In this document: in pieces, positions 1 through 57,008 of the stretch
How positions within the stretch are numbered: position 1 is the first letter of the stretch
Layout: every line of letters begins with the position of its first letter
Origin: Myxococcota bacterium
GTDB taxonomy: Bacteria > Myxococcota_A > Bradymonadia > UBA7976 > UBA1532
Length of the DNA stretch: 64,000 bases
NCBI GenBank assembly: GCA_963169045.1
Contig: CAUJDF010000057.1
Coordinates: 62,001-126,000, forward strand
Reading direction: 5' to 3'
The notes under the pieces: model-generated
Database searches by the model: none
What the model was told of the DNA's origin: nothing
The model's input: only the letters and a program-made list of their open reading frames with translations
Made by a program: the position numbers and the translations under genes

Positions 1-1124
1 CCCAGGCCGCCTGGGACCTCAGCCGGCTCATCGACGGCGCCGCCGTCCCCGGCCAGCCCGTCTTCATCTACGGCGTCTCCTATGGCACGTGGTGGGCCCA
101 CCGCTACCTGCAGCTCTTCCCCGCCCAGGCCAGCGGGGTCGTCCTCGACTCGATCTGCCCGCCCGGCGGCTGCGCCGTCTCGCTCTACGACGCCGGCTTC
201 GACGAGGTGGCGCGCATGCTGCTCGAGGCGTGCTCGCGCGACGCGGACTGCGCGGCCCGCCTCGGCGCGGACGCCGTGGGCCGCGCCGAGCGCCTGTACC
301 GCCGCCTCGGCGAGGGGCACTGCCCCGCGGTCGCCGCCGACGGCCTCGACCCGGCGACCCTGCGGCGCGCGCTCGCGGCGCTGCTCACCGACTGGTCGTT
401 GCGCGCCGCCATCCCCGCCGTCGTGTACCGGTTCGACCGCTGCGCCGCCGGCGACGTCGCCGCGCTGCGCGTGTTTCTCGGCCGGCTGCGCGGCGGCGGC
501 CCGCCCGGCACCGCCATGGCGGAGCCGCTCTTCTCGCTCGTCCTCAACCGGCACATCGGCCTGTCGGAGATGTGGGGCGATCCCGCGCTCGACGCCGCCG
601 AGCTCGCGCGCTGGGAGGCGCGCCTGCTGGTCTCCACGGGGAGCTCGGTCACGTCCGCCCGCGCCCGCCCGTCCTGGCCGACGTACCCGCCGGACCGCTA
701 CGCCGGCGCCTGGGCCCACACCGACGTGCCGATGCTGATGATGAACGGCTCGCTCGACCCGCAGACGCCGCTCTCGATCGCGCGCCTCGCCGCGGACCAC
801 TTCGACGGACCGCGGCAGCGCTTCGTGCGGGTGCCCGGCGCCGCCCACGGCGTCATCCAGCAGGCGCCCACGCGCTCCGGCACGCCGTGCGGCATGTCGT
901 TGCTCGGCGCCTTCCTGCGCGACCCGGACGCCCCGCCCGACGAGGCCTGCCTCGCCGACCTGCTCCCCGTCGCCTTCACCGCCGAGCCCGCCACCGCCGA
1001 GTTCCTCTTCGGCGTGCCCGACCTCTGGGACACGCCGCGCGAGCGCGCCGGCCGCGACGCCGCCCCCGCGCCGCCCCCGGGCTGGGACGACGTGCGGCGC
1101 GCCTTCTGGGAATCCACGCCGTAG
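1..1124 (+). CDS. alpha/beta hydrolase, TAP-like peptidase family (5' end cut by window)
   Basis: The frame is open from base 3, so the N-terminus lies outside the window; 373 residues remain. Near the visible start is the nucleophile elbow GVSYGTWW (G-x-S-x-G), followed by VVLDSICPP. The distal part has the other triad elements in the usual order: an acid in MMNGSLDPQTPL and a histidine in VPGAAHGVI. This late Asp-then-His arrangement with a TAP-like C-terminal region is typical of S33-type serine aminopeptidases or esterases. Cysteine pairs in the lid region suggest export, but the signal peptide cannot be seen. Substrate cannot be inferred. The next gene starts shortly after the stop on the same strand. 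Confidence 0.8.
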   Translation, partial: QAAWDLSRLIDGAAVPGQPVFIYGVSYGTWWAHRYLQLFPAQASGVVLDSICPPGGCAVSLYDAGFDEVARMLLEACSRDADCAARLGADAVGRAERLYRRLGEGHCPAVAADGLDPATLRRALAALLTDWSLRAAIPAVVYRFDRCAAGDVAALRVFLGRLRGGGPPGTAMAEPLFSLVLNRHIGLSEMWGDPALDAAELARWEARLLVSTGSSVTSARARPSWPTYPPDRYAGAWAHTDVPMLMMNGSLDPQTPLSIARLAADHFDGPRQRFVRVPGAAHGVIQQAPTRSGTPCGMSLLGAFLRDPDAPPDEACLADLLPVAFTAEPATAEFLFGVPDLWDTPRERAGRDAAPAPPPGWDDVRRAFWESTP

Positions 1125-39703: not shown

Positions 39704-40240
39704 CTACCGCCCGCGGCGCGCGGCCATCTCGCGGCCGACGGCGGCCAGCTCGTCGGGCGCGAGCAGCGCTTCGGCGAGGGGGAAGATCTCGGCGTCCTCT
39801 TCGGCGATGTGGCGGGCGTAGACGGCGCGCAGCTCGCTGACGGCCATCGCGAGGCGGCTCGCGTCCTCGGGGGCCAGCGCGCCCTCGGCGAGCCAGCGGC
39901 GACCGAGCGCCTCGACGAGGTCGTGCCCCGGCGCCACCTCGGCGTGGTCGGCCTCGAGCGCGTCGAGGCGGGCGCGCACCCCGTCGTCGGAGCGCGCGCG
40001 CAGGCGGGGGAAGAGCGACTGCTCCTCGTCGGCGGTGTGGCGCGCGGCGGCGTGCGCGAAGTAGTCGAGCGCCGCCTCGAGGCCATCGCGGTAGTCGGCG
40101 TCGAGCGCGCCGCCGCGCCGGTCCTCGGCCACGCGGCGCAGGACGTCGAGGAAGCGTTCGATGCGGCGATGGCAGTCCTGCAGCATCTGGAGGGGGCGGT
40201 CGTGGCCGCCGCGCGGCGGCTCACCGATGGTGACGGGCAT
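39704..40240 (-). CDS. hemerythrin-like di-iron protein
   Basis: A 178-residue HHE protein: MLQDCHRRIERFLDVL, HTADEEQSLFPRL, EADHAEVAPGHDL and YARHIAEEDAEIFPL provide a His/Glu di-iron set. It starts 20 bases after the qNOR stop with GAGGAGA as ribosome-binding site, so it is in the qNOR transcription unit. Hemerythrin-like proteins linked to qNOR are common and may store or deliver NO or oxygen (inference). Confidence 0.85.
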   Translation of the reverse strand: MPVTIGEPPRGGHDRPLQMLQDCHRRIERFLDVLRRVAEDRRGGALDADYRDGLEAALDYFAHAAARHTADEEQSLFPRLRARSDDGVRARLDALEADHAEVAPGHDLVEALGRRWLAEGALAPEDASRLAMAVSELRAVYARHIAEEDAEIFPLAEALLAPDELAAVGREMAARRGR

Positions 40241-42640: not shown

Positions 42641-43108
42641 TTACACGAGGTAGCCGAGGCGGAAGCCGCGGGAGACGAGGGCGGCGCGGGTGCCGACGCC
42701 GAGGCGCAGGCGCATGTGCTCGACGTGGGCGCGCACGGTGGCCTCGCTGATGCCGAGCGCGGTGGCGATCTCGCCGGTGGTCTCGCCCTCGGCCAGATGT
42801 TTCAGAACGTCCACCTCGCGGGGGGTCAGACGTTCCCAATCGGTGCCCTCGGCGAGGGGGGTGAGCGTCGAGACGATGCGGTCCTCGACATGGGTGCAGC
42901 GCAGCTCGTAGGGCTTCCGGCGGAAGGTCACGCGGCGCGGCTCAGCCGACTGGCACTCGGGGCTGCCGGGGCGCGCCGAGCAGCCCATGACCTGGCCGCA
43001 CGTGCGGTGGCTGCACTCGCCGAGCACCTGCCGGGATTCGGGCGTCTGCCCCACGACCCGGCCGTCAGACTGGCGGGCCAGAAGCACCACGGGCTTCCTC
43101 TCTTCCAT
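42641..43108 (-). CDS. LuxR-type regulator with Cys-rich N-terminal domain
   Basis: A 155-residue regulator. Residues 30-75 contain CSHRTCGQVMGCSAR, PECQ and RCTH (at least five cysteines plus histidines), suggesting a metal or iron-sulfur site. The C-terminal 65 residues are a LuxR/FixJ helix-turn-helix (LTPREVDVLKHLAEGETTGEIA, ATVRAHVEHMRLRLG). No receiver domain is present. With qNOR immediately downstream, control by redox or NO is suggested. The ATG at 43108 has AGGAGG upstream. A 10+10 inverted repeat lies at 43160-43184. Confidence 0.75.
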   Translation of the reverse strand: MEERKPVVLLARQSDGRVVGQTPESRQVLGECSHRTCGQVMGCSARPGSPECQSAEPRRVTFRRKPYELRCTHVEDRIVSTLTPLAEGTDWERLTPREVDVLKHLAEGETTGEIATALGISEATVRAHVEHMRLRLGVGTRAALVSRGFRLGYLV

Positions 43109-43227: not shown

Positions 43228-44631
43228 TCACGGCGCCACCCCCACCCGGGCGAGGCCGCGGCGGCCGCGCTCGCTGTCGGGCTCCCGGGCGAGGCCCTCG
43301 AGCCAGGCGCGGCGGGCGTCGTCGGTCCGGCCGAGCTGCTCGTAGAGCTCGGCGAGCTGGAAGTGCCGCGCCGGCCCCGACGTGACGGCGTTGGCGATCT
43401 CGTAGTGCGCCACGGCGCCGTGCAGGTCGCCGCGCCGCGAGAGGTCGCCGCCCCAGAACCGGTGGTAGTCGAAGAGGGCGTCGCTGCCCCGCAGCGAGAC
43501 CACCATCGCCGCCACGCCCGCCACCTGCAGGCCGGCGCGCAGGAGCGGGCGCGGCACGGGCTTGTCGGCGCGCGGCCAGGCCGCGAAGGCGACGAGCGCG
43601 CCGAGCACGCCCGCCGTCACGCTCGCCCCGGCCACCGGCACGAAGGCCTCGACGAGCGCGGCCGAGACGAGCCCCGCCGCGACCGCTGCCATGATCGCCG
43701 CCCCGCCCTCGATGGGTCGCGCTCGCACCAGCCACTCGAACAGACGCGCGAAGGGGGCCAGCAGGCGTCCGATGGGACGGCCGATGGCGAGGAACCAGCG
43801 ATCGGGGAACAGCAGGATGTAATACAGACCGATCATGTACCAGCTGAACCAGCCGATCTTCAGGTCGATGACCTCCACCAGGCCGTGGAAGATGGGTCCG
43901 CTGAGGCACGCGAGCGGGCGCAGGCGCGGCACCAGGAAGGCGAAGGCCACGAAGTACTGCCAGAGCATGATGGTGTGCGCGGTGAAGGCATAGGCGACCG
44001 ACTCCTCGAGGCCGAGCGAGCCGGTGCAGAAGGACAGAAAGCCGCGCATGGAGTCGGTCTGGATGATCTTGTCCACCGCCCAGCCGTTCATCCAGAACTT
44101 CGTGGTCTTGGTGAGCGCCGTGTAGAAGTAGACGACCGAGATCTCGACGTAGATGAGGCGGGCGGCCCAGGAGCGCACGTGGGTGAGCGTGGGCATGGCA
44201 TGCCCCTCGTCGACCCCGTGCAGGAACTCGTGGGGCAGGAACCAGCAGATGAGCAGGACGAGGCTGATCAGATAGTGGTGCTGATAGCTGTCGGCCTGGC
44301 TCCAGAAGTAGACGCCGCCGTAGATGAACGTCAGCGCCTGCAGCGAACGGCGCGTGGCGATGCCGAGGGCGACGCGCAGGGCGAGGAAGCCGCCGACGAG
44401 GTAGAGCAGCGTGACCAGCGCCTGCGTGGGCACCGGCAACAGCCCGTCGAGGAACGGCAGGTGCGAGACGTTGAAGCCGTTCACGCCGTAGCGCGGCGCG
44501 CGCGGCACCATCAACATCCACATGTCGAAGGCCAGCAGGCCGAAGAAGACGACGCGGAACGTGGTCAGGCGCACGCGCAGCACGTCGTTCTGGTGCCAGA
44601 AGCGGTCCCAGCGTTCGGCAAGCATGTTCAC
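43228..44631 (-). CDS. HTTM (vitamin K carboxylase-like) membrane protein with TPR tail
   Basis: A 467-residue protein with about eleven hydrophobic helices including RVVFFGLLAFDMWML, YVEISVVYFYTALTKTTKFW and HTIMLWQYFVAFAF, matching the HTTM domain shared with vitamin K gamma-glutamyl carboxylase. The C-terminal 80 residues are TPR-like (AVAHYEIANAVTSG, ELYEQLGRTDDARRAWLEG). GTG 44631 overlaps the upstream stop (GTGA) and has GAGGTG five bases before it. The preceding gene carries a segment like the C-terminal part of carboxylase, so the two together may form one complex. Activity unknown. Confidence 0.75.
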   Translation of the reverse strand: MNMLAERWDRFWHQNDVLRVRLTTFRVVFFGLLAFDMWMLMVPRAPRYGVNGFNVSHLPFLDGLLPVPTQALVTLLYLVGGFLALRVALGIATRRSLQALTFIYGGVYFWSQADSYQHHYLISLVLLICWFLPHEFLHGVDEGHAMPTLTHVRSWAARLIYVEISVVYFYTALTKTTKFWMNGWAVDKIIQTDSMRGFLSFCTGSLGLEESVAYAFTAHTIMLWQYFVAFAFLVPRLRPLACLSGPIFHGLVEVIDLKIGWFSWYMIGLYYILLFPDRWFLAIGRPIGRLLAPFARLFEWLVRARPIEGGAAIMAAVAAGLVSAALVEAFVPVAGASVTAGVLGALVAFAAWPRADKPVPRPLLRAGLQVAGVAAMVVSLRGSDALFDYHRFWGGDLSRRGDLHGAVAHYEIANAVTSGPARHFQLAELYEQLGRTDDARRAWLEGLAREPDSERGRRGLARVGVAP

Positions 44632-45788
44632 GGGCGCACCTCACAGAGGTTCAGATCGGCGGGGATGGGACGGCGCGCCTGGCCGTCCGGGTGCGGACAC
44701 GTCAGGTCGACGTAGACCTGGGCGTTGCCGCCCTGGCGCTGGCAGAGGAAGCGGGCGAAGCCTTCGACCACGTCGACGCGGGCGCGCTTCATCAGGCTGA
44801 TCCACACGTCGTGGACGTGGTCCCGCGCGTCGACGGGGGTGCGCTCGGGGCCGGTGGCCCAGGAGACGCTGCAGTCGATCATCCGGATGGGCGAGAACAT
44901 GCGCCACGAGAAGCGCTCGTCGAACTCGTCGTCGGAGACGTAGTAGCGGAGCGGCAGCAGGACCTGCATGGCGACGACCGCGGCGATGAAGACGTTGGCG
45001 AACCGCTTGCGGCCTGAACCGGCGTCGCCGGCGCCCGCGGGGGCCGCCGGTGCCCCGGGGCCTTCGTCGTCGTCGGCGGCGACCGGCAGCGGCGGAGCGG
45101 CGGCGCTCGAGGCCGACAGGGCGGGCGCCGGGGCGGCAACGGACGCGGCGGCGAGCCGGCGCTCGTCGCGCACGACGTCGGACAGCGACCGCAGCACGCC
45201 CGCCGGACAGACGGCGACGCAGTCCCCGCAGCCGGTGCAGCCGGCGTCGTCGAGCGCCCCCTCGCCGCGGAAGCCCATCGACACGCCGGTGCCCCAGCCG
45301 GTGCGGCGGATGACGTCGCGGTCCCCGCACGCGCGGATGCAGCGGTCGCAATGCACGCACGGCGCCGGCAGCACGGCGATGTAGTCGGACGAGCGGTCGA
45401 AGCCGGGACGCGCCGGCGGCGGCGTCCACGGCGCGTCCATGACCCCGTAGTCCCGGGCCAGCGCGTCGACCTCGCAGCCGTCGCGACCGCACGGGCCGCC
45501 GTGCTCGGCGAGCGCCATCTCGACGACGGCGCGCCGGATCGCTGCGAGCCCGTCGCCGTCCGTCCGCACCGCCATGCCCCCCTGGGCGGCGACGTGGCAG
45601 GCGGCGACGGGGCGCGCGCTGCCCTCCACCTCGACCAGGCACATGCGGCATACGGCGCGCGAGGGCAGGCCCGGCACGTGGCAGAGGTGGGGGACGTCCG
45701 CGCCCGCCGCGCGCGCCGCGTCGAGGAGCGTCGCCCCCCGGCGCACGCGGACGGACCGCCCGTCCACGTTCAGCTCGATGGATTGCAT
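44628..45788 (-). CDS. NuoG-like Fe-S protein fused to a carboxylase-like membrane tail
   Basis: A 386-residue protein. Residues 1-85 form a [2Fe-2S] plant-type ferredoxin (CHVPGLPSRAVCRMCL with a further Cys). A short NuoG-type segment (HGGPCGRDGC) and two [4Fe-4S] motifs (CVHCDRCIRACGD, CTGCGDCVAVCP) follow to about residue 215. After an Ala-rich linker comes a helix and LLPLRYYVSDDEFDERFSWRMFSPIRM, resembling the region of vitamin K carboxylase homologs that follows HTTM. It is coupled to RnfD-NuoF upstream and HTTM downstream, so it could route electrons from a flavin to the membrane protein (inference). Confidence 0.8.
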   Translation of the reverse strand: MQSIELNVDGRSVRVRRGATLLDAARAAGADVPHLCHVPGLPSRAVCRMCLVEVEGSARPVAACHVAAQGGMAVRTDGDGLAAIRRAVVEMALAEHGGPCGRDGCEVDALARDYGVMDAPWTPPPARPGFDRSSDYIAVLPAPCVHCDRCIRACGDRDVIRRTGWGTGVSMGFRGEGALDDAGCTGCGDCVAVCPAGVLRSLSDVVRDERRLAAASVAAPAPALSASSAAAPPLPVAADDDEGPGAPAAPAGAGDAGSGRKRFANVFIAAVVAMQVLLPLRYYVSDDEFDERFSWRMFSPIRMIDCSVSWATGPERTPVDARDHVHDVWISLMKRARVDVVEGFARFLCQRQGGNAQVYVDLTCPHPDGQARRPIPADLNLCEVRP

Positions 45789-47902
45789 GCGTCACACCTC
45801 CCCTTCTCGGCGTGGGCGGCCACGGCCTGCGGCCAGTGGCGGATCACGGAAACGACGCGGCCGGGGGCGGCGATCCCCAGGCCGCAGGTCGAAGCGCGGG
45901 CGAGCACCGCCGACAGGGTGGCGATGCGCGCGCGTCCGACGTCGTCGAGCGCGCCGTCGGCGAGGGCGCCCCACAGGCGCGCGAGGTCGCCGGTGCCCAC
46001 GCGGCACGGCGTGCAGCGGCCGCAGGACTCGTCCCGGAAGAAGCGGGCCGCGGTGAGCGCCTCGCGGACGACGCACTCGCCGGCGTCGAGCACGCGCACG
46101 GCGCCCGTGCCGATCGACGCGCCGGCCTCGGCGAGCGCGCGGGCCTCGAACGGTGTGTCGATGGCGTCGGGCGGCAACAGACCGCCGGACCAACCGCCGA
46201 CCGCGAAGCCACCGAGGCGCGCGTCGTCGCACAAGCCCCCGCCGCGGCTCAGGATGTCGCGCAGCGGCGTCCCCGGCTCGACCTCGTACACGCCCGGGTG
46301 CCGCACGGCGCCCGAGAGCGAGACGAGGCGCGGGGGCGCGCGATCCGAGCCGAGCACCGCGGGCAGCCAGGCGAGCGTCTCCACGTTCTGGACGACGGTG
46401 GGGCGGCCGTCGAGGCCCCGCTCGGACGGATACGGCGGCCGCGGGTGCGCCTCGACGCGGCCGCCGGCCAGGAAGTCGAGCAGCGCGGTCTCCTCGCCGG
46501 CCACGTAGCGGCCGGGGCCGCGCCGGATCTCGCACGCGGGGAGCGGGCCGGCCTCGTGCCGCAGGTCGACGAGCGCGTGCTCGAGGGCGCGCGCGCCGGC
46601 GTGGAAGGCCGGATCGAGGACGAAGACCACGCGGTCCGCGCCGAGCACCGTGGCGGCGATCATCGCGCCCTCGGCGACCGAGGCGGCGTGGTGTTGCAGC
46701 AGGTAGCGGTCCTTGAAGGTCTCCGGCTCGCCCTCCTGGCCGTTGACGACGAGGACGCGCGGCCCCGGATGGCGCAGGGCGGCGGCCCACTTGTCGGCAA
46801 CGGGGAAGCCGGCGCCGCCGCAGCCGCGCAGGCCGGAGGCGCGCACCTTCGCGAGGGCCGCGGCGGGATCGAGGCGGACCCCGTCGAGGACGCGCGGCGC
46901 CGGCAGCACGGTCAGGCCCGGGCCGGCGGGCAGCGACTCGGTCCGACCGTGCTCGTCGGGGAGCGAGGCGGCGAGGGGCGTCATCGTGACGGGGCGGGCG
47001 CGGCGCGGCCGGGCGAAACGGTCGAGCGCGGGCGTGGCGGCGTTCATGATCAGGACGCCCCACATCTCCGCGCCGGGGATCGACGTGTAGAGGCGGCCGA
47101 AGACGCCGATCGCGGCGGCGCCGAAGCCGAACGCGAGGCCGCCGATGCGGGTCTGGGGCGCGGTCACCGGGTCGGTGGCGAAGAACGCGGCGTTCAGGAG
47201 GGTGGCACTGCCAAGCAGGTAGATGGCGGGGTCGAGCAGCCAGGGCGCGTGCCCCGCGACCTGCGTCGTCGCCGGCAGGAACGCGACGAGCACCGGCGCG
47301 GTGACGAGCAGGGCCAGCGGCGCCTCGCGCTTGAGCGCCACCACGCCGATCATCAGCGCCGCGACGAGGCCGAGCAGCAGCGCGCTCGTCTCGCCGATGG
47401 CGCCGCCGCGCGCGCCGGCGAGCAGGTCCCAGACGGCGGGGCTGACGAAGCCGCCGGCCTCCTTGGCGAGCGGGCTCGCGGCGCTGACCGCGTCGGGCGC
47501 CGCCTTCACCACCGGCTCGAAGACCTCGAGGACCGCGACGGCCGCGCGCCCGAAGGCCGCGGGGTTGAAGAGGTTGCGGCCGAGGCGCGGCAGGCGCCAC
47601 TTGCCGGGCAGCTCGGCGACGAGGGCGCCGACGACGATGAAGGGCAGCGGTGTGTCGGCCTTGAGCGTGAGGCCGAGCAGCAGGCCGGTGATGACGCTCC
47701 CCGGGTTGAACCAGCGGAAGGGCGCGCCGGCCAGCGCGCGCGGGACGATGCCCGCCGCCATCGTGAGCGCGATGGAGAACGCGAGCACGAGGGCGGCGCG
47801 CGGTCCGCCGCCGAGGACGCCGAGCAGCGCCACCGGCGCGAGCAGGGCGATCGCCGCGCCCCGTGCGCCGAGGCGGGCGCGCCACTTCGCCCCCGGGATC
47901 AT
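45770..47902 (-). CDS. RnfD/NqrB-NuoF fusion protein
   Basis: A 710-residue protein. Residues about 1-300 are an RnfD/NqrB-type membrane part with FNPAAFGRAAV, GSATLLNAAFFATDPVTAP and GVLIMNAATPALD. Residues about 330-700 are a NuoF-like flavin and Fe-S part: SGLRGCGGAGFPVADKW (FMN loop), VVNGQEGEPETFKDRY, a slot for NAD or another donor, and the [4Fe-4S] motif ESCGRCTPCRVG with a later Cys. It resembles RnfC plus RnfD fused in one chain, and should move electrons between a soluble donor and membrane quinone or the next protein. The ATG at 47902 overlaps the pentaheme gene stop. Confidence 0.85.
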   Translation of the reverse strand: MIPGAKWRARLGARGAAIALLAPVALLGVLGGGPRAALVLAFSIALTMAAGIVPRALAGAPFRWFNPGSVITGLLLGLTLKADTPLPFIVVGALVAELPGKWRLPRLGRNLFNPAAFGRAAVAVLEVFEPVVKAAPDAVSAASPLAKEAGGFVSPAVWDLLAGARGGAIGETSALLLGLVAALMIGVVALKREAPLALLVTAPVLVAFLPATTQVAGHAPWLLDPAIYLLGSATLLNAAFFATDPVTAPQTRIGGLAFGFGAAAIGVFGRLYTSIPGAEMWGVLIMNAATPALDRFARPRRARPVTMTPLAASLPDEHGRTESLPAGPGLTVLPAPRVLDGVRLDPAAALAKVRASGLRGCGGAGFPVADKWAAALRHPGPRVLVVNGQEGEPETFKDRYLLQHHAASVAEGAMIAATVLGADRVVFVLDPAFHAGARALEHALVDLRHEAGPLPACEIRRGPGRYVAGEETALLDFLAGGRVEAHPRPPYPSERGLDGRPTVVQNVETLAWLPAVLGSDRAPPRLVSLSGAVRHPGVYEVEPGTPLRDILSRGGGLCDDARLGGFAVGGWSGGLLPPDAIDTPFEARALAEAGASIGTGAVRVLDAGECVVREALTAARFFRDESCGRCTPCRVGTGDLARLWGALADGALDDVGRARIATLSAVLARASTCGLGIAAPGRVVSVIRHWPQAVAAHAEKGRCDACNPSS

Positions 47903-48378
47903 GGCAGCACCTCCTGCCACGGCGTGTCCTGCGTCCAGGCGGCGCTCTGGCGCGGGGCATGGCATCCGGCGCACTCGGTGACGACGTCGGTATGGCACGT
48001 GGCGCAGGCCGAAGGGCGCAGGCGGCCGAGGAGCGCGTGTCGGCGAGCGTCGTCGTCGCCGCCGATCGGGCGCCGGAAGCCTTCGGTGTGCGTGTCCGGC
48101 GGCAGCGCATGGCAGTCACGACACTCGTCGACCGTGTGGCACGACAGACAGCGCTCGGGGCGGGCCTGCGGCGCGCGCCCGTGGGTCGTCGCCCAGGCGG
48201 GATCGGCGTGGTACTGCGGATGCGCGCCGGCGATGGCGTCGTCCTGGTGGCACTGGGCGCAGTCGCCGCGGGCCCAGCGCTCGGCGGGCAGCGGCGGGTG
48301 GTCGCCGCCGGCGCGCAGGGCGCGGGCGCCCATGACGACGAGCAGCACGGCGGCGAGGATGAGCGCGAGCCCCTTCAC
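47899..48378 (-). CDS. pentaheme c-type cytochrome
   Basis: A 159-residue protein with an N-terminal hydrophobic anchor (GLALILAAVLLVVMGARAL) and five CXXCH motifs: CAQCH, CLSCH, CRDCH, CATCH, CAGCH. It starts at GTG 48378 overlapping the upstream stop (GTGA) with GGAGGG before it. Situated between the SUMF1-fold genes and the RnfD-NuoF fusion, it probably carries electrons in the periplasm between a membrane module and the larger multiheme proteins. Confidence 0.88.
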   Translation of the reverse strand: MKGLALILAAVLLVVMGARALRAGGDHPPLPAERWARGDCAQCHQDDAIAGAHPQYHADPAWATTHGRAPQARPERCLSCHTVDECRDCHALPPDTHTEGFRRPIGGDDDARRHALLGRLRPSACATCHTDVVTECAGCHAPRQSAAWTQDTPWQEVLP

Positions 48379-49997
48379 GTGCCCTCCGCGTCGGTGGCGC
48401 AACGAAAGCCGAGGTCGAAGGCGCGAAAGTCGGGCGCCCGGTACTGTCCGGCACCGCCGCGCACGCCGCTCGGCGGGCTGACGGCGCTGCCGCCGGCGAC
48501 GAAGCCCTCCTCCGTCCACTCGGCGACGTTGCCGGCGAGGTGGAGGGCGCCGGACGGCGCGGCGCCCCCGGCGAAGGAGTCGGCCGGGGCCGCGTAGGTG
48601 TATCCGTCGCGCTCGCCCCACTTCTCGCCCCCGGTGTTGGCGCGGCGCCAGTCCCAGGCGTCGCCCCAGGGCCAGCGGCGGCCATCGGCGCCCCGCGCCG
48701 CCTTCTCGTGCTCGCGGCGCGTGGGCAGGCGCTTGCCGGCCCAGCGGGCGAACGCGTAGGCGTCCCACCAGTCCACGCCGACGACCGGGTCGCCCGGGCG
48801 GCGGAAGGTGCCCGCGTCGAAGGGCGCGACGCGCGCCGCGGGCGAGTCGCGGAAGAGCGCGGCGCGGTACTCGCGCCAGTAGCGGGGCGTGTGGTCCTTG
48901 TCGGCGGGCTCGGCGGGGTGGCAGTGCGCGTGCGGGTCGTCGCGCGTGCTCTCGAGGAAGCGGCCGTAGGCGGCGTTCGTGACCTCGGTGCGGTCGATGC
49001 GGAAGGCGGCGAGCGTGTCGGCGGCGCGGTCGTCGCCCGTCCGGAACGGGCCCGCCTCGACGCGGACGAGCGCGCCGGCCTCGGGGCGCTGGGCGCCCAC
49101 GGCGGGTGTCGTCGGCGGCGTGGTGCGGTCCGGCGGCGGGGGCGCGTCGCCGGCGACGGGGACGCCGCTCGGCAGCAGGCACGGCGGCGCGCCGCAAGGG
49201 GGCGAGACGGCTGGGGTTTCCGCGACGGCCGGCGCGGCGGGACACAGTCGGCCGGGCCAGCCGGGGGTGCGGTGCTCGCCGCCGTCGCGGTCGACCACGA
49301 GCGCCTCGACGCCGGCAGGGAGCCGGGCGAGGCCGGCGCGCACCGGGCCGTCGCAGAGGTCGTGCGCGACGAGCGCGACGTCGGGCTCGGGGGCGCCGAC
49401 GACGAAGGCGCGGCGACACTCGCCGGCGCCGTCGGCCTGGGCGAGGGCGCCGTCGGTGAGCGCGCCGGCGGCGAGGGCGCGGTCGGGCCACTGCGGGTGG
49501 AAGAGCGTCACCGCCGAAGCGCCCCGGACGTACACCAGCGCCAGGACGTCCGTGCTCGTGCTCGCGCTCGTCCCGGTGACGGCGACGCGGATGTCGCCGC
49601 CGCCCTCGGCGAGGGCGTCGAACGCCGTCCGCGCGGCGCCGCCCAGCAGCCGCGCCCGGTCCGGCCCGCGGGCCGGGCTCTCGACCGCGGGGCCGCGGGC
49701 CGTCGTCGGGCGCTGCGGCGCCTCCGCGAACCCGCGCAGCCGCCGCGCCGCGACCGCCGTCGCGAGGGCCGCGCGATCCGCCTCTCCGGCGACCTCGAGC
49801 GTGAACGCCGCCCCCAGAACCACGAGCTCGCGCCGCGTCCGCTCCCCCTCGCGTCTCGCGGGCGGCAGCGCCGGCGCCGTCGCCCGGACGACCACCGCGG
49901 GCGCGGGCGCGGGCGCGGGCCGGAGCGCGTTCCACGTCAGCGCGAGGCCCACCCCGACGACGAACACCAGCAGCGCCGCGCGGCGCTGCGCGCTCAC
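48375..49997 (-). CDS. SUMF1-fold protein with N-terminal helix
   Basis: A 540-residue protein. A single N-terminal helix (RRAALLVFVVGVGLALTWNA) is followed by about 270 residues of Ala/Pro-rich sequence with a TPM-like or lectin-like segment, then a SUMF1 domain from residue 300: FRIDRTEVTNAAYGRFLE, DAYAFARWAGKRLPTRREHE, WPWGDAWDWRRAN, ALHLAGNVAEWTEEG and LGFRCATDA. No FGE catalytic Cys pair is seen at the C-terminal end. It begins at GTG 49997 overlapping the previous stop, and its stop overlaps the pentaheme gene. It may help assemble or anchor the cluster's cytochromes (inference). Confidence 0.72.
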   Translation of the reverse strand: MSAQRRAALLVFVVGVGLALTWNALRPAPAPAPAVVVRATAPALPPARREGERTRRELVVLGAAFTLEVAGEADRAALATAVAARRLRGFAEAPQRPTTARGPAVESPARGPDRARLLGGAARTAFDALAEGGGDIRVAVTGTSASTSTDVLALVYVRGASAVTLFHPQWPDRALAAGALTDGALAQADGAGECRRAFVVGAPEPDVALVAHDLCDGPVRAGLARLPAGVEALVVDRDGGEHRTPGWPGRLCPAAPAVAETPAVSPPCGAPPCLLPSGVPVAGDAPPPPDRTTPPTTPAVGAQRPEAGALVRVEAGPFRTGDDRAADTLAAFRIDRTEVTNAAYGRFLESTRDDPHAHCHPAEPADKDHTPRYWREYRAALFRDSPAARVAPFDAGTFRRPGDPVVGVDWWDAYAFARWAGKRLPTRREHEKAARGADGRRWPWGDAWDWRRANTGGEKWGERDGYTYAAPADSFAGGAAPSGALHLAGNVAEWTEEGFVAGGSAVSPPSGVRGGAGQYRAPDFRAFDLGFRCATDAEGT

Positions 49998-50797
49998 GGC
50001 GTCCCTCCCGAGAGCGACAGCGCGCAGCGGAAGCCGACGTCGTCGTAGAAGTGCCGCGGGTTCTCGGCGCCGCGCCGCGCCCGGCGCGCGTGCTCCGCGC
50101 CCGCCGACGCCCAGCCGCCGCCGCGGACCACCCGCCGCGTCGAACGCTCGTTGCCGGGCACCGCGCCCGCCGCCACGAAGCGCGCCTCGGGCGCCGCGCC
50201 GGCGTCCGGACCGCGCGGATCGGCCGCGCCGTCCAGCGTCGCGTACGCGTACCGGTCGTAGTGATCGGCCACCCATTCGCGGACGTTGCCGCCGAGGTTG
50301 AGCACGCCGAGCGCCGTGCGGTCGAAGCTCGACGAGGCCGCCGCGGGCCCCGCCGACGGGGCGCGGTCCGCGATCGCGCGGCCCGGCTCGAACACCGGGC
50401 CCCAGGGATAGCGGTGCGGCCCGGCGGCCACCTCCCACTCGGCCTCGGTCGGCAGTCGGCGGCCCGCCCAGCGCGCGTAGGCGTCGGCGTCCTCCCACGT
50501 GACGAAGCGGACGGGCAGGTCCTCGCCCCCGGGCGGGAAGCCGCGCATCCACGGCCCGCGCGGGCGGTAACCGCTGGTCCGCACGAAGGCGGCGAAGCGC
50601 GCGTTCGTCACCTCGGTGCGGTCGATCAGGAAGGCCGACAGGCGCACGCGCACGGCGGGGCGCTCGTCGTAGCGTCCCGCCGCGTCGCCGATCGTGTATT
50701 CGCCCGCGTCGATCCGCACCATCTCGGCGCCGTCGACCGGCGACACGACGCGGCCGTCCCCCGTCGGGGTCAACAGGAGCGCGACGAGCAGCCACAT
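49994..50797 (-). CDS. SUMF1-fold protein, exported
   Basis: A 267-residue protein with a short signal peptide (WLLVALLLTPTGDG) and a complete SUMF1-type fold: MVRIDAGEYTIGDAAGRYDE, IDRTEVTNARFAAFV, DAYARWAGRRLPTEAEWE, ALGVLNLGGNVREWVAD and GFRCALSLSG. The Cys residues used by true formylglycine-generating enzymes are missing, as in NirV. The ATG at 50797 overlaps the stop of the upstream beta-propeller cytochrome, so it follows that protein in the same operon. Confidence 0.8.
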   Translation of the reverse strand: MWLLVALLLTPTGDGRVVSPVDGAEMVRIDAGEYTIGDAAGRYDERPAVRVRLSAFLIDRTEVTNARFAAFVRTSGYRPRGPWMRGFPPGGEDLPVRFVTWEDADAYARWAGRRLPTEAEWEVAAGPHRYPWGPVFEPGRAIADRAPSAGPAAASSSFDRTALGVLNLGGNVREWVADHYDRYAYATLDGAADPRGPDAGAAPEARFVAAGAVPGNERSTRRVVRGGGWASAGAEHARRARRGAENPRHFYDDVGFRCALSLSGGTP

Positions 50798-53700
50798 CAC
50801 TCGATGCTCAACAGGAACGACGACAGATCCTCGATCTGTCGCGGGGTGAGATGGGAGGTGCCGCCGTGGCTGTCGACGACCTGGTCCTCGAGGTCGAGCG
50901 GCCCGTCGGGCGTGCGCGTCGTCAGCTCGTTGAAGCCGCTCTCGCGGCCGCCGGGGCGCGCGTCCTCGGGGCCGAGGCGCACCGGCAGGCGGAAGCGCCG
51001 CAGCGAGGGGTGGCCCGGCGTCGCCAGCACCTCGCGGATCGACCGCGCCCGCCCGTGGTGCAGGAAGACCGGCGGCCGATCCCACAGCCCGCGCAGCTGC
51101 ATCGTCGTGAAGGAGCCCTCGCGGTCCTCGACGCGCCCGCCATCGGTGGGATCCAGATCGAGGTCGTCACGCTCGTTGGCGCGCTCCACGGCGCGCACGC
51201 CGGCGAGCGTGTAGGACGCGTCGCGTCGCGTGATGGTGGTCAGCGGCGGCAGCGCGCGGCGGTCGTTCGGCGCCAGCAGCTCGGATTTGTTCGTGAATTC
51301 GGGCGCGGTGTGGCAGACGCCGCACGCGACGCGCGCGTCGTCGAACAGATGGCGCCCGCGGACGACGGCCGGGTGCTCCTGGTCGTACGGGTTGGGCGGC
51401 AGGCGCGTCGAGTTGCCCATGAAAGCGCCGACGAAGCGGTACAGGTCGGTCAGGTCGTGGGCGGCGCCGAACCAGCGCAGCGACTGCTGCCGGATGAACG
51501 CGTCGCGGCGCGCGTCGAGGTCGTGGCCGACGGCGCCGAGCTTCGTCACGAGCACGCGCTCTTTGAGCTCCTCGTGCTGCGGCGGGCGGACCTCGGTGGC
51601 CTTCCAGTCGGTGAAGTCGCCGGCCCACACCGGGCGGTCGAAGTCGACGGAGCTCGCCGGCTCGTTGATGTCGGCCCCCTGCCCCTCCGACAGGCGGTGC
51701 GTGCCTTCGAAGTAGAACGGCTGGATGGCGAACAGATTGCGGACCGAAGGGATGCCGAGCGTGCCGCCGGGGGTCTGATGGCCGTCGCGGTCCTGCCCGA
51801 TCGACTCGCCGGCGCCCCAGCCGCGGCCGTCGCCGGTGTCGCGCACGTGGCAATGACTGCACGAGGTGTCGCCGTCGGAGCTGAACACCGCCGTCCGCAC
51901 CACGAAGGCGCCCTTCTCCGCGTCGGTGTCGAGCGCCGGACGCGCGAGATCGCCGACGACGACGTCGCGGCGCGCGCCGCTCGCCGCGTCGATGAGGCTC
52001 ACCGTCTCCGCCATCTGGTTGGCGACGAAGAGCATGCCTTCCGACGGCGTGCCGGGCGTCCCCGCGACCACGCCGACCGGCCGCAGGCCCGTGTCGATCG
52101 CGCGGACCGGCTCCATGCGGTCGGCCGGATCCCGCGCGTCGGGCCGCAGGACCCACTCGACGACCTCGAACGTGCCGGCCATGGTCACGAACAGACGGTC
52201 GCCGACGACCGCCGCCCACTCGGGGAAGGCACCGTGGACGCGCTGCAGCTCCGGCGGCAGGTCGCCCTTCACGTCGCCCGTCGTCGCCTCGGCCGTGTCC
52301 GACGTGTAGCGCACCCACTCCGGGTGGGATTCGTAGCGGCTGGCGTCGAGCAGGTACGCGGGCTCGCGGCCGGGCGTCGCCGCCGGGATGCGCAGCCGCC
52401 GCAGGTCGATCGCCACGACGTCGTTCTGGATGTCGCGCATCTTGAAGTTCCAGGTGCCGTCGACGGCGTCGAAGGGTCCCATCGTCGCCTGCTCGTCCCA
52501 GGGGAACGGGTCGGTCGTGACGGGGTCGCGCAGCACCGTGCGCTGCGCCGCGGGATGGCTCGGATCCCACGTCTCCGCACCGAAGGGATCGCGCGCCTTC
52601 GTGGCGCCGAAGCCGGCGCCGAGCGTGAGCACGACGAGGTGGTCGCCGACGACGGCGAGGTGGTTGGCGAGGCTCTGCAGGTAGAGCGCGCCCACCTCGC
52701 GGTTGGCTTCGGTGTCGACGATCGACACGTCCATCGTGCCGGTGTTGCCGACGAACAAATGACGGCCGTCGGGCGACAGGGCCAGGTCCTTGGGATGGCT
52801 GCCGGCGTTGCCGACGGGGATGCCGGGCCCGCCCTCGCCGGCGCGGACCCACTCGACGATGCGCGCGAGGTCCGGGTCGTCGGGCGCGAACAGGGCGCCG
52901 CCGGGGTGGAACTCGGTGGTGGTGCGCTCGTCGCCGAAGCCGCCGAGGCTCTTCGGCACGACGGCGCGCACGAGCGGGCTCTCGAACGGGCGCCCGCCCA
53001 CGGCGTTCTCCACCGCCGACAGGAAGTTCTCGACCGGGTCGGGCCCGGCGACGAAGCCGCCCGCCGACTCGGCGTGGCAGCGGCCGCAGCGGGCGCGCAG
53101 CAGACCGTCGATGCCGCCGCTGCCGGCGGCCGCCTTCGCGATCTCCGCCGCCGAGTAGCCGCGCGCAGCGAGGTCCGCGGCGAGCTGCGGCGAGGGCGCG
53201 TCGTCGCCGTAGAACGCCGCGTCGTCGAAGCCGCCCACCTCGCGCACGCGGGCCGAGAAGTGCGACGTGCCGGCGTGCACGTCGAGCACGAGCACCTGGT
53301 CGAGGTAGCGGTTGGCGACCCAGGCGCGGCGGCCGTCCGCGGAGAAGACGAGGCCCTGGCAGTAGAAGTCGAGCGGGATCTCGCCGGCGACGGTGTCGGT
53401 GTAGGTGTCGACAACGGTGGCGTAGTTGGCCAGCTCGTTGGTGACGACGAGGTAGCGGCCGCCGGGGTGCGGGACGAGCGCGTACGGCTTCGGACCGACG
53501 GGGATGCGGCCGCGCACGGCGCCGGTGACGACGTCGACGACGGCCAGCGCGCGTCCGGGGCGCTCGTGGTCGCCGGGCAGCGTGACGTAGAGCTTCCGGC
53601 CCGTGGCGTCGAGAGCGACGCGCTCCGGCAGCTCGCGGCGCGGCTGCGGCTCGGGCAGCGGGTTGTTGTTGGGGACGGGCGAGAGCTCGCGGCGCACGAA

Positions 53701-53844
53701 GGGCTGCCGGTAGCGCCACACGTCGCTCGTGAGCTGCGAGAAGCGCGTGCGCGTGTGGACGGGCGCTCGATCGCCGGACACGAGCGAGGAGCGTGGCGCG
53801 GACGCGGCGCCGACGACGAGGGCGACGACCAGCAGCCGCTTCAT
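50797..53844 (-). CDS. beta-propeller and diheme peroxidase-like cytochrome (hydrazine synthase beta-gamma-like)
   Basis: A 1015-residue exported protein. Residues about 60-600 hold YVTN-type propeller repeats (RKLYVTLPGD, RRAWVANRYLDQVLVLDV, RHLFVGNTGTMDVSIVDT) with one inserted heme motif CGRCH (H257). Residues about 640-1015 resemble the diheme MauG/cytochrome c peroxidase family with CSHCH (H666) and CGVCH (H845) 179 residues apart, plus PEFTNKSEL and GLWDRPPVFLHHGRA. Hydrazine synthase has this layout as a propeller beta subunit and a MauG-like gamma subunit. The adjacent upstream gene resembles the alpha subunit. Function as HZS is inferred, not shown. Confidence 0.8.
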   Translation of the reverse strand: MKRLLVVALVVGAASAPRSSLVSGDRAPVHTRTRFSQLTSDVWRYRQPFVRRELSPVPNNNPLPEPQPRRELPERVALDATGRKLYVTLPGDHERPGRALAVVDVVTGAVRGRIPVGPKPYALVPHPGGRYLVVTNELANYATVVDTYTDTVAGEIPLDFYCQGLVFSADGRRAWVANRYLDQVLVLDVHAGTSHFSARVREVGGFDDAAFYGDDAPSPQLAADLAARGYSAAEIAKAAAGSGGIDGLLRARCGRCHAESAGGFVAGPDPVENFLSAVENAVGGRPFESPLVRAVVPKSLGGFGDERTTTEFHPGGALFAPDDPDLARIVEWVRAGEGGPGIPVGNAGSHPKDLALSPDGRHLFVGNTGTMDVSIVDTEANREVGALYLQSLANHLAVVGDHLVVLTLGAGFGATKARDPFGAETWDPSHPAAQRTVLRDPVTTDPFPWDEQATMGPFDAVDGTWNFKMRDIQNDVVAIDLRRLRIPAATPGREPAYLLDASRYESHPEWVRYTSDTAEATTGDVKGDLPPELQRVHGAFPEWAAVVGDRLFVTMAGTFEVVEWVLRPDARDPADRMEPVRAIDTGLRPVGVVAGTPGTPSEGMLFVANQMAETVSLIDAASGARRDVVVGDLARPALDTDAEKGAFVVRTAVFSSDGDTSCSHCHVRDTGDGRGWGAGESIGQDRDGHQTPGGTLGIPSVRNLFAIQPFYFEGTHRLSEGQGADINEPASSVDFDRPVWAGDFTDWKATEVRPPQHEELKERVLVTKLGAVGHDLDARRDAFIRQQSLRWFGAAHDLTDLYRFVGAFMGNSTRLPPNPYDQEHPAVVRGRHLFDDARVACGVCHTAPEFTNKSELLAPNDRRALPPLTTITRRDASYTLAGVRAVERANERDDLDLDPTDGGRVEDREGSFTTMQLRGLWDRPPVFLHHGRARSIREVLATPGHPSLRRFRLPVRLGPEDARPGGRESGFNELTTRTPDGPLDLEDQVVDSHGGTSHLTPRQIEDLSSFLLSIE

Positions 53845-56800
53845 GGCGACACCGGGGGGCGCGCTCCGTGGAACGGCGCGCCGAGGTCGATCCAGCGCGC
53901 GAGCGTGCGCAGGTCCTCGGCGGCGGGCGCGGCGTGGCCGCGCAGCTTCTCGAAGAGGGCGCTCTCGCTCGACAGCGCCTCGCGCTCGTTCACGAGCGGC
54001 AGCAGGCGCTCGTACGGGGCCGAGAAGCGCGCGCCCGGCGCGTCGCGCAGGTCCTCGTGGCAGGCCACGCAGGCGCGATCGAGCACGGGCTGCACGTCGC
54101 GCCGGAAGTCGACCGCCACCGGCGCCTGCCGTGCGGGCGGCAGACGGCGCGCCGCGGTCGCGTCCCAGTTCGCCATCACCTGCGAGGCCGAGGTCACGAC
54201 GTCAGGCGGCCCGATGGCCTGCGTCCGCTCGCCGGTGAGGGCGCCATGGCAGCCGCCGCACCGCAGCGGGAAGACGGACCGCGGGATGGAGAACGTCAGT
54301 TTTTCGCCGGGTTGCACGTAGAACCAGCGGTTGGTGCGGTGCAGCGCGCGGCCGTCCGCGTCGAGCGCCTGCAGGTCGAGCGGCGTCTCGGGCGGGACCT
54401 GCACCTGGAACGACCCGTCCGGCTCGAGCGGCACCTCGGCGACGATCCACTCGCGGCCGTGCAGCCCGGCGCCGGCGGCGTCGTCGGGGCCGCGCGGCGG
54501 GTCGTGGGCGATGACGCGCACCGCGTGCAGCCGCGACTCGGCGAAGTCCCGGGGTCCCACCGGCGCGAAGTGCGTCAGGAACGATTGCAGCAGCGGGTAG
54601 TCGTAACACTCGACCACCGCCGGCGCGTCCGGCGCCGCCCGCAGCACGCCGTCCTCGCGGCGCGTCTTCGTCCCGGCGACGAACTTCTGCTCGGTGTGCG
54701 CCCGCTCCTTGAGCCGCACCACGATGGGGCGCGGCGTGTGCTCGGCGAAGGCCGCCGAGCCGGCGAGGCGCTCCCGCGTGAATGGGCCGGTGCGGCGCCC
54801 CGCCTCGACGGCGCCCTCGAACCGCAGGCGGTACACGTCCCAGTCGGGATCGGCGTCCGGGTCGAGGTGGTCGATCGGGCCGGCGGCGTGGGCGGCGAGG
54901 ACCGTCCCGTCGGGCAGCGGGTACGGATCGCGCCACGCGCCGCCGGGCGAGCGGCCCGTCACCGTGACGGCGTCCGGGCCCGTCTCGGCGAAGAACGTGA
55001 ACTGCGCCGGCAGGAAGCGCGGCGACGACGAGGCCGGCTTGTCGTCGGGCCCGAGCGGCAGGTCGTCCACCGGGTTGTCGGGCTCGACGTCCGGGCCGAA
55101 GCCGTGGTCGGCGAGCAGCAGCAGGCCGCCGCCCCACAGGTTGCGCGGGTCGAGCGCCATCCGCACCTCGAGCCCCTGGGGCGTCTCGCGCGAGTCGGCG
55201 ACCACCGGGTAGCGCGAGCGGTTGTTGCCGTGGATGTGGTAGTCGAAGCCGCCCGACATGACGCGGTAGATGGCGCCGGCGAACACCGGGCGGTCGGCCT
55301 GGTCGCCGCTGTCGCGGACGCTCGTGAACATCACCTCGCCGCTGGTGCGCATCGTCGGGCGGCGGTCCTGCGCGCTGCCGAAGGTCATGCGGCGGGCGGG
55401 GCGGCCGGGCACGAGGCGCCACACGTCGTAGGCCGGGGCGAGGCGGTTCGAGGCGTCCTCGACGACGTAGACCGTCCGGCGGTCGGGGGCATCCGGGAGC
55501 GGCGCGTCGAGCTCGAGGCGGGCGCCGACGACGCTGTCCGGGTCGGCGAGGTGGGCCACGATCGTGCGCTCCTCGCCGGCGAACGGCCCGGCGACGATCG
55601 CGAGGCGGCGGCCGGCGAGCGTGCCCGGCGCCTCGGTGCGCTGCGCGTCGACGATCGTGCGGGCCGTGCCGCCGTCGGCCTCGCCGATCAGCGCCCGCGC
55701 CGCGGTGGAGGCCCAGACGCCGGCCGCGTTCGAGGCGTACACGATCGCGACGTCGTCGAGGGCGGACTCGGCGCCCGGTCCCGGCGCGTAGAGCGGGTCG
55801 ACGTGGTGGATCAGCGTGCCGTCGGCGAGGCGTTCGGGGCCGTCGCTGACCTGGCGCGGCGGTCCGGGGACGAGGTCGTCGTCGAGCGCCACCTCGTACA
55901 GACGGAAGGGCGCGTCGGCGCTTGAGCGCGCCGCGAAGACGAGGGCGCGCGCGTCGTAGCGCACGTCGAGGCCGAGCACCTCCACCGGACCGAGCGCTGC
56001 GGTCACGCTGACCGGATTGCCATCGAGCGGCTGCACGACGACCTCGCCGCCGCCGTGGAACGGCTCGACGTCGAAGAAGCGGCGCGGCGCGTGGCGCGGA
56101 CCACGGACGTACGCGATCCCCCGCAAGCGGCCGAGGGCGTCGGCGGCGATGGACCCGCCGCCGCTCGTGAGGCGCAGCGCCGCCCGCTCGGCCCCGAGCC
56201 AGCGCACGAGCCGCCGGGCGTCCGGGTCGTCGAGCGACTCGAGGAACTGCCCGTTGCCGCCGCGGTGCAGGACGCCGCCCTCCGAAATCGGGAGCGTTTT
56301 CGCGACGATGCGGCTCAGCCCGAGGTCGCCGCCCAGGTTCGCGAAGCGGGTCACGGCGCCGAGCGCCTGCGCCCGGTCGTGGGCGAGCAGGCGCGGCGAG
56401 AAGCCGGCGCCGGGCCGCATCGGGGCGTCGGCGCGCGGCAGCGGCGGCGTCAGCTTCAGGTCGTTGAACGCGTCCGGGCCGTGGCACGCCTGCATGAAGC
56501 AGCCGTTGCGCACGAGCACGCCGAGCGCCTCCTCCCGGAACGCGGCGACGTCGCCGGCCTCGGGCGCGGCCCCCTGCGTCTCGAGCGCCACCCAGGCGGT
56601 CAGCGTGCGCAGGTCCCGGTCGTCGGGCGTCGCGAAGACGTCGATGCCGCGGTGCGGCAGGCCGCCGAGCGACTCGGAGAGCGGCTTGCGGACGATCGGG
56701 CTGAACGCGGGGTCGGCGCCGGGCTCGAGGCGGTGGTGCGGATCGCGGGCCGAGTCGAACGCCGCGCGCAGGCCGTCCGGCGGGATGCGGCCCGTGCGCG

Positions 56801-57008
56801 GGTCGATCGGGAAGAGGAAGGCGCCCTCGGGCTCGGTGGCGCGGCGCGCGTCGAGGTCGGGCGTGCCGTGGCAGCCGGCGCCGCAGCGCTGCTCGAGCAC
56901 CGGCGCGACGCGCGTGCGGAACATCGCGAACGACGGGTCCTCGGCGTCGCGCTCGGCGCATCCGAGCAACACCGCGACGCACAGCAGCGCCCTCTCCCGC
57001 ACCACCAC
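53841..57008 (-). CDS. multiheme lipoprotein resembling hydrazine synthase alpha subunit
   Basis: A 1055-residue lipoprotein (ALLCVAVLLGC). The N-terminal region carries two atypical heme-like motifs, CX3CH (C42-H47) and CX4CH (C170-H176). A TolB-like propeller spans about 280-640 (GLDVRYDARALVFAAR, VAIVYASNAAG, RMTFGSAQDRRPTMRTSGEV). A middle region includes WFYVQPGEKLTFSIP, and two CXXCH motifs lie at 917-921 and 980-984. Hydrazine synthase alpha has propeller, then a domain with a five-coordinate heme, then a bis-His heme. Similar proteins occur outside anammox bacteria with unknown function. The start is GTG 57008. Confidence 0.75.
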   Translation of the reverse strand: MVVRERALLCVAVLLGCAERDAEDPSFAMFRTRVAPVLEQRCGAGCHGTPDLDARRATEPEGAFLFPIDPRTGRIPPDGLRAAFDSARDPHHRLEPGADPAFSPIVRKPLSESLGGLPHRGIDVFATPDDRDLRTLTAWVALETQGAAPEAGDVAAFREEALGVLVRNGCFMQACHGPDAFNDLKLTPPLPRADAPMRPGAGFSPRLLAHDRAQALGAVTRFANLGGDLGLSRIVAKTLPISEGGVLHRGGNGQFLESLDDPDARRLVRWLGAERAALRLTSGGGSIAADALGRLRGIAYVRGPRHAPRRFFDVEPFHGGGEVVVQPLDGNPVSVTAALGPVEVLGLDVRYDARALVFAARSSADAPFRLYEVALDDDLVPGPPRQVSDGPERLADGTLIHHVDPLYAPGPGAESALDDVAIVYASNAAGVWASTAARALIGEADGGTARTIVDAQRTEAPGTLAGRRLAIVAGPFAGEERTIVAHLADPDSVVGARLELDAPLPDAPDRRTVYVVEDASNRLAPAYDVWRLVPGRPARRMTFGSAQDRRPTMRTSGEVMFTSVRDSGDQADRPVFAGAIYRVMSGGFDYHIHGNNRSRYPVVADSRETPQGLEVRMALDPRNLWGGGLLLLADHGFGPDVEPDNPVDDLPLGPDDKPASSSPRFLPAQFTFFAETGPDAVTVTGRSPGGAWRDPYPLPDGTVLAAHAAGPIDHLDPDADPDWDVYRLRFEGAVEAGRRTGPFTRERLAGSAAFAEHTPRPIVVRLKERAHTEQKFVAGTKTRREDGVLRAAPDAPAVVECYDYPLLQSFLTHFAPVGPRDFAESRLHAVRVIAHDPPRGPDDAAGAGLHGREWIVAEVPLEPDGSFQVQVPPETPLDLQALDADGRALHRTNRWFYVQPGEKLTFSIPRSVFPLRCGGCHGALTGERTQAIGPPDVVTSASQVMANWDATAARRLPPARQAPVAVDFRRDVQPVLDRACVACHEDLRDAPGARFSAPYERLLPLVNEREALSSESALFEKLRGHAAPAAEDLRTLARWIDLGAPFHGARPPVSP

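Follow-up and report, generated by a model that had tools for sequence, protein, structure and literature searches.

A ferredoxin joined in frame to the C-terminal half of a split GGCX-like protein, behind an RnfD-NuoF fusion, in a Myxococcota genome

The window, a stretch of 64,000 nucleotides from a Myxococcota bacterium, carries on its minus strand a gene (45788-44628) whose product of 386 amino acids joins a NuoG-type ferredoxin to a membrane-anchored tail, which its structure model identifies with part of human gamma-glutamyl carboxylase (GGCX), the vitamin K-dependent enzyme behind the activation of clotting factors: its ninth transmembrane helix (TM9) and first lumenal lobe. Directly behind it on the same strand lies a gene for an HTTM protein of 467 amino acids (43228..44631) that resembles TM1-8 of the same enzyme, and ahead of it lies a gene in which RnfD and NuoF are fused. 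A preliminary description of the region had placed both genes correctly, and their open reading frames are intact. The arrangement is best read, with a probability of roughly 40%, as an NADH-driven, NQR/RNF-like conduit leading to haem enzymes of the periplasm, with a split carboxylase-type quinone enzyme tethered to it and perhaps sharing quinone with it. The source genome is a 9.0 Mb draft in 109 contigs (95% complete), and the window lies within contig 57.

The ferredoxin part occupies residues 1-205 (45174..45788, minus strand) and was assigned to the NuoG/HoxU/HydA type by domain matches and a motif scan. Pfam gives Fer2_4 at 7.3e-18 and dicluster 4Fe-4S domains over cut-off, and the nearest relatives are NuoG, HoxU and the N termini of [FeFe]-hydrogenases (HydA1, 7q4v, 6.7e-31). 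The motif scan found the complete ligands of one [2Fe-2S] cluster (C36, C47, C50, C64) and two [4Fe-4S] clusters (C144/147/150/154 and C184/187/190/194), so that the fusion to a 2Fe-2S plus 2[4Fe-4S] ferredoxin, as first proposed, stands. The same cluster motifs mark the N-terminal module of NuoG, HoxU and HydA, whose usual partner is NuoF; unlike that module, the window protein has an incomplete N5-type His-Cys3 site (H96, C100 and C105 only), and where that module would continue into a catalytic or complex I domain, it ends in a membrane helix and a carboxylase lobe. Between the two parts lies a flexible linker, placed by composition and codon score at about residues 206-260 (45009..45173), of which residues 206-258 are 70% Ala, Pro, Gly and Ser. 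The in-frame codon score is +69 for the ferredoxin and +78 for the tail; in the Ala/Pro linker it is weak (+4.2) yet still the highest, the best other frame reaching +1.8. Because the codon signal is in frame on both sides and no plausible internal start would yield a separate whole tail gene, the fused frame is not a chance one.

The tail opens with a single transmembrane helix at about residues 261-284 (44937..45008), equivalent to GGCX TM9 by model superposition, and continues into a predicted periplasmic part, residues 285-386 (44628..44936), which comprises the DERFSWRMFSPIR motif, equivalent to the GGCX linker between transmembrane and propeptide-binding domains, and the first lumenal lobe. 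The preliminary description had singled out residues 270-386 as carboxylase-like; the segment is right, the helix starting at about 261, and the likeness is borne out by both profile and fold. A search against the carboxylase families, which it had proposed, matched VKGC_lumenal_dom (PF22777) to residues 261-381 of the fused protein at E 5.4e-4 (20.3 bits) and to the tail alone at 3.3e-5 (24.3 bits), both under the family cut-off of 27.7. PF22777 matches 20 of 51 tails at E 0.1, and the only two other families that appear do so in two members and one. An AlphaFold model from the 51 aligned tails, with a mean predicted local distance difference test (pLDDT) of 91.4, superposes on residues 354-493 of human GGCX with Z 8.7 over 126 residues at 3.1 Å (VIA-align). 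The top 16 rows are all GGCX (Z 6.5-8.7, nearly all on 354..493), while row 17 is unrelated at Z 3.7. Foldseek alone gave a weak match to GGCX (E 0.15), and GGCX was not among the solved structures retrieved with the tail by sequence alone. Since the model superposes on GGCX 354-493 well above all other rows, the tail is assigned, on its modelled fold, to TM9, the linker into the lumen and the first lumenal lobe. S294, M297 and F298 share the spacing of the GGCX linker residues S398, M401 and M402, a mapping that rests on spacing, published residue names and the structural range. Four conserved cysteines (C306, C349, C364, C382) lie in the periplasmic part, and GGCX residue 493 aligns to the tail's end.

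The HTTM protein matches HTTM (PF05090) at 2.5e-20, and a profile of 24 HTTM relatives finds GGCX at 1.5e-19. Its AlphaFold model (pLDDT 92.4; predicted template modelling score, pTM, 0.91) superposes on GGCX from residue 41 with Z 20.7 over 299 residues at 4.2 Å, the first 16 VIA-align rows being GGCX. The TM1-8-like core covers residues 1-290 and is followed by further helices, which align partly to GGCX up to 704-729, and by a C-terminal TPR region (about 382-467). In the structure alignment the GGCX active base K218 corresponds to K175, and the pocket residues H160, V210, W223, F286 and F299 correspond to H118, V167, W180, F248 and F262; K175 and H118 are invariant in 43 of 43 alignment rows. 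The Glu-pocket residue N159 is Gln117 here, and K217 is Thr174. The roles of the active base, the naphthoquinone-pocket residues and N159 follow the available part of PMC12589487, which also places the naphthoquinone pocket on the lumenal (periplasmic) side, built partly by the linker after TM9. The HTTM homology proposed earlier is therefore upheld, and the quinone pocket is intact. The window keeps all 13 invariant columns of a 29-tail alignment and all 18 of a 24-sequence HTTM alignment; both alignments include the window sequence, so the agreement follows by construction and signifies only that neither half has drifted at any of these columns.

Taken as a pair, the two proteins have the HTTM fold, TM9, first lumenal lobe, catalytic lysine and naphthoquinone-pocket residues of GGCX. 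They differ from it in being encoded by two genes, the one for the C-terminal half coming first, in the absence of the second lumenal lobe from the tail, in the TPR end of the HTTM protein and in the fused ferredoxin. Contact between the tail and HTTM chains may be inferred from the models, both of which map onto one GGCX chain. A separate identity, that of SdpA/SdpB, was rejected, since the window HTTM domain and tail match no NCBIfam family at E 0.1; SdpB itself is matched by just 2 of 16 HTTM relatives (best 1.3e-6).

The split between HTTM domain and carboxylase region, on which the preliminary description had remarked, is real but not special. A tail-profile scan of 84,980 species gave 68 loci, in which the presence of HTTM was judged by six-frame search; five with 800 bases or fewer behind the tail were left aside. 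An HTTM gene directly follows the tail gene on the same strand in 60 of the remaining 63, of which 55 were counted by script and five are pairs overlapping by a few bases (L148, L150, L154, L175, L195). The other three either have no HTTM match (L180, L190) or have it 3.5 kb off (L188). A second genome set, which overlaps the first, has the HTTM gene in all 31 other tail loci that were opened. With the tail gene first, the gene order is the opposite of the order within GGCX. The host records are almost all Myxococcota or titled Deltaproteobacteria; pairs outside Myxococcota occur at L209, L211 and L213, whose records are titled Phycisphaeraceae, Planctomycetota and Blastopirellula. The source genome has two further tail-HTTM pairs, on contigs 44 and 73; a tree of 31 HTTM sequences pairs the window copy with L147 (support 100/99) instead of with one of those two. 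Ferredoxin, NuoF or RnfD stands near the stand-alone pair in 0 of the 68 loci in the DNA examined, so the pair needs no such neighbour in general. The two-gene split is ordinary in this phylum, and the ferredoxin fusion alone is exceptional.

The fusion has been found, so far, in the source genome only, and the same is true of its neighbourhood with RnfD-NuoF, the pentahaem cytochrome and the hydrazine-synthase-like genes. A search of 235 genomes with the whole ferredoxin-tail protein gave no second fusion among the matches listed. The tail searched in 377 genomes gave 52 matches besides the window, and none of the 32 opened, the source genome's own pairs on contigs 44 and 73 among them, carries the fusion; nor does any of the 68 loci from the species scan, or any other of the 13 family members examined. 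RnfD-NuoF, searched in the same number of genomes, had no other example among the matches listed, and none of 29 other RnfD loci opened has both domains in a single frame. No split or ferredoxin-fused HTTM/VKGC form was found in the literature on bacterial HTTM/VKGC proteins, SdpB and ferredoxin links, drawn mostly from outside subscription journals. One related tail (L164, 592-2016) stands behind a protein kinase-like domain (474 amino acids; Pkinase 8.2e-13), directly before an HTTM gene. Such a domain ahead of the tail agrees with a cytoplasmic N terminus.

The RnfD-NuoF fusion (45770..47902, minus strand, 710 amino acids) was recognised from Pfam matches and motifs. It combines RnfD (PF03116, 3.8e-43) and Complex1_51K (1.2e-33; the PF01512/PF10589 NAD domain) in one frame. 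The RnfD/NqrB-like membrane domain (residues 1-310) has the flavinylation-type motif D137AVSAAS, similar to DAVTAAS and DAISTAS in the near relatives at L256 and L257. The NuoF domain (about 331-710) has the flavin mononucleotide (FMN) motif G360CGGAGFP and [4Fe-4S] ligands C627, C630, C633 and C673. Two ApbE flavin transferases are encoded in the source genome. The available part of PMC8238504 treats RnfD/NqrB as the likely carrier of electrons through the membrane and reports single-chain fusions of RnfD with a cytosolic NAD domain in NQR/RNF-like clusters, for which it proposes one-way outward transfer; a model of the RnfD-NAD domain pair is given in the accessible part of PMC10979944. In the window protein, too, an NqrB/RnfD membrane domain comes first in the chain and a predicted cytosolic NADH-oxidising domain follows. 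Its NADH domain is of the NuoF type (PF01512/PF10589), whereas theirs, as PMC8238504 describes it in that part, is of the NqrF type (PF00175), and the window has a separate ferredoxin. Neither an FMN-binding (PF04205) subunit nor ApbE was found among the operon proteins scanned; lacking that subunit, the system is called functionally like the NQR/RNF-like systems and not a member of them.

The tail helix is flanked by basic GRKR before and acidic DDEFDE after it, and the ferredoxin should therefore be cytoplasmic. Direct delivery of electrons from iron-sulfur clusters to the HTTM quinone, the new design that had been suggested, is not supported and is unlikely, since the clusters are predicted on the cytoplasmic side and the quinone pocket on the periplasmic side, and the hop would have to cross the membrane. 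Electrons reaching that quinone would need the RnfD flavin as a relay, or a diffusing quinone.

The ferredoxin-tail and HTTM genes are the last two of a row of eight minus-strand genes running from 57008 to 43228, in which neighbours overlap by 1-19 bases. The RnfD-NuoF frame runs 19 bases into the start of the ferredoxin-tail gene, and the latter shares four bases (44628-44631) with the HTTM gene, which accords with the overlapping translation behind RnfD-NuoF described earlier. The row opens with a hydrazine-synthase alpha-like protein of 1055 amino acids (53841..57008) and a beta-gamma-like protein of 1015 (50797..53844), the latter weakly matched as a beta-propeller with a CCP/MauG-like cytochrome. 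Two FGE/SUMF1-like proteins follow, recognised by domain scan (267 amino acids, 49994..50797, and 540 amino acids, 48375..49997), and then a pentahaem c-type cytochrome of 159 amino acids with five CXXCH motifs (47899..48378), which is probably periplasmic and the likely electron acceptor. A similar cytochrome adjoins the hydrazine-synthase-like genes of another genome, G147 (L237, 6.8e-16).

The alpha-like protein matches PF18582 over cut-off (44.1 bits) and 5c2v_A at 24.3 bits. Neither it nor the beta-gamma-like protein should be called hydrazine synthase, because scores against the curated NCBIfam models are far below their cut-offs (alpha equivalog 28.8 bits against 800; beta 44.6 against 560; beta-gamma 31.9 against 1250). 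In the available part of PMC10732223, similar genes in Phycisphaerae are taken to suggest a wider enzyme family, and fused hzsBC outside known anammox bacteria is reported. Those genes and the window's both have hzsA-like immediately before a fused hzsBC-like gene, but the window genes are less similar to hydrazine synthase, and their operon adds FGE-like, RnfD-NuoF and HTTM genes. The beta-gamma-like protein occurs in 13 of 282 genomes at 1e-30, a count that includes the source genome and partial matches. The full set of hzsA-like, hzsBC-like and two FGE-like genes is found again in G194, and portions of it in G020, G196 and G160. The closest such genes, at 68% identity, are in G160, whose locus is cut by a contig end and so speaks neither for nor against the arrangement. 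In G332, of the same phylum and a different family, a row (L256, 9723-20000) holds hzsBC-like, ApbE, hzsA-like, a three-haem protein, a NuoF/RnfC-like protein with SLBB and Fer4 sites, FMN_bind and RnfD, and an Rnf-type conduit beside such haem enzymes thus arose or was kept in more than one lineage. The HTTM pair beside hydrazine-synthase-like genes and a conduit was seen in the window only.

On the preferred reading, the products of genes 47902-43228 would most likely form one membrane assembly. The NuoF domain would oxidise NADH, and electrons would pass from its [4Fe-4S] cluster through the ferredoxin domain to the RnfD flavin. The flavin would then take them through the membrane to the operon's haem proteins, namely the pentahaem cytochrome and the hydrazine-synthase-like ones. 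Such a route matches the one proposed for published NQR/RNF-like flavin systems, with a donor of the NuoF type. Fusion to one half (TM9 plus the lumenal part) of a two-gene GGCX homologue, of which the HTTM protein is the other half, would keep the ferredoxin domain at the membrane. With pocket and catalytic lysine kept, the HTTM-tail pair is probably still an enzyme that draws on a periplasmic-side quinol. Through the fusion it may lie next to the NADH conduit, where its quinol, or the oxidised or epoxide product, could be re-reduced by way of the RnfD flavin or the membrane quinone pool, and not by direct iron-sulfur contact. This reading is favoured because eight genes overlap, the HTTM protein and the tail fall on different parts of GGCX and the pocket residues are kept. 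It is further favoured because no cofactor motif is incomplete in NuoF, in the 2Fe-2S site or in either 4Fe-4S site, a flavinylation-type motif is present with ApbE in the genome, and the G332 row and the single-chain RnfD/NAD-domain precedent (PMC8238504, in the part cited above) offer parallels. Several observations weigh the other way. None of the 12 other family genomes (13 examined with the source) shares the whole arrangement, the absent FMN-binding subunit has been mentioned, and the incomplete N5-type site implies an iron-sulfur chain shorter than that of complex I. Moreover, none of the called flank genes examined at the hydrazine-synthase-like loci of G020, G194 and G196 encodes RnfD, a ferredoxin or HTTM, so the conduit is not obligatory there.

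The chief competitor, itself unlikely though far from negligible, is a neutral fusion in which an adjacent ferredoxin gene and a resident tail-HTTM pair were joined in frame where the topology fitted, conduit and HTTM enzyme working independently. The pair does stand alone in the 60 of 63 related loci, the kinase-bearing tail of L164 shows that unrelated cytoplasmic domains can be added, and the ferredoxin fusion is confined to one genome. An accidental joining sits less well with the retention of the invariant residues of both halves and of all 12 ligands of the three clusters, with an HTTM gene inside the same tight operon, or with a window HTTM copy distinct in the tree from the genome's two others.

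More doubtful is a maturase, in which the quinol-dependent HTTM-tail pair would modify periplasmic proteins of the operon (haem or FGE-like ones, for instance) as GGCX modifies Glu, the ferredoxin fusion merely fixing amounts and place. The equivalents of K218, H160 and the pocket suit this, as do the FGE-like and large, presumably periplasmic, proteins of the operon. Against it, the Glu-binding N159 has become Gln117, the tail covers GGCX 354-493 only and so is without the second, propeptide-binding lobe, and hydrazine-synthase-like genes elsewhere lack HTTM in the flanks examined. Quite improbable too is a new NADH:quinone oxidoreductase in which HTTM and tail would be the quinone-reducing membrane arm, receiving NuoF and ferredoxin electrons via RnfD at the pocket quinone. 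An NADH-dehydrogenase-type iron-sulfur domain is indeed physically fused to half a quinone pocket, and RnfD/NqrB is thought to move electrons across the membrane (PMC8238504, same part); but the membrane separates the clusters from the pocket, the reaction of GGCX is the oxidation of its quinol and not the reduction of a quinone, and the stand-alone pair has no adjoining reductase in the DNA examined. An assembly artefact joining two genes is highly improbable, for although the genome is a draft in 109 contigs and the join recurs in no second genome among the matches listed and loci opened, there is no stop, frameshift or ambiguous base across it, the codon signal is in frame on both sides, and the overlaps at both ends are typical of a single operon.

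A bolder form of the preferred reading, an NADH-powered vitamin-K-type cycle, is doubtful by itself: the quinone of the split carboxylase homologue would be recycled by the fused NuoF-ferredoxin-RnfD arm in place of a thiol-driven VKOR, the enzyme acting on periplasmic haem enzymes of the hydrazine-synthase type. The source genome has four VKOR-family proteins, which would be an alternative means of epoxide handling; proteins of this family commonly serve disulfide formation.

Other redox genes lie elsewhere in the window. A short octahaem cytochrome of the hydroxylamine oxidoreductase/hydrazine dehydrogenase family (60287-61432, minus; 381 amino acids, eight CXXCH) matches 4n4j at 1.4e-29 and the NCBIfam hydrazine dehydrogenase model at 101.7 bits against a cut-off of 900, and is adjoined by a 671-amino-acid multihaem protein with TPR. 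A copper nitrite reductase (14146-15699, plus; TIGR02376, over cut-off) ends in a cytochrome c-like part. A LuxR-type regulator (about 42641-43108) is followed by a NorB-type nitric oxide reductase with cytochrome c-like and COX1 domains in one protein (40261-42573, minus) and by a hemerythrin-domain protein (39704-40240, minus). Cytochrome b, 4Fe-4S sites and an FlpD domain are combined in one protein at 26418-28433 (plus), downstream of a COX1 protein (23748-25499).

No job is known for most bacterial HTTM proteins. The two-gene pair gives a Myxococcota family of small proteins encoded beside HTTM a definite structural reading, that of GGCX cut between TM8 and TM9. The ferredoxin fusion is, within the searches made, the first hint of a direct link between an HTTM-type enzyme and NADH-derived electrons. 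Should the coupling prove real, it would reveal how quinol is supplied to a vitamin-K-type enzyme in a bacterium, and it would tie RnfD-type conduits to hydrazine-synthase-like haem enzymes.

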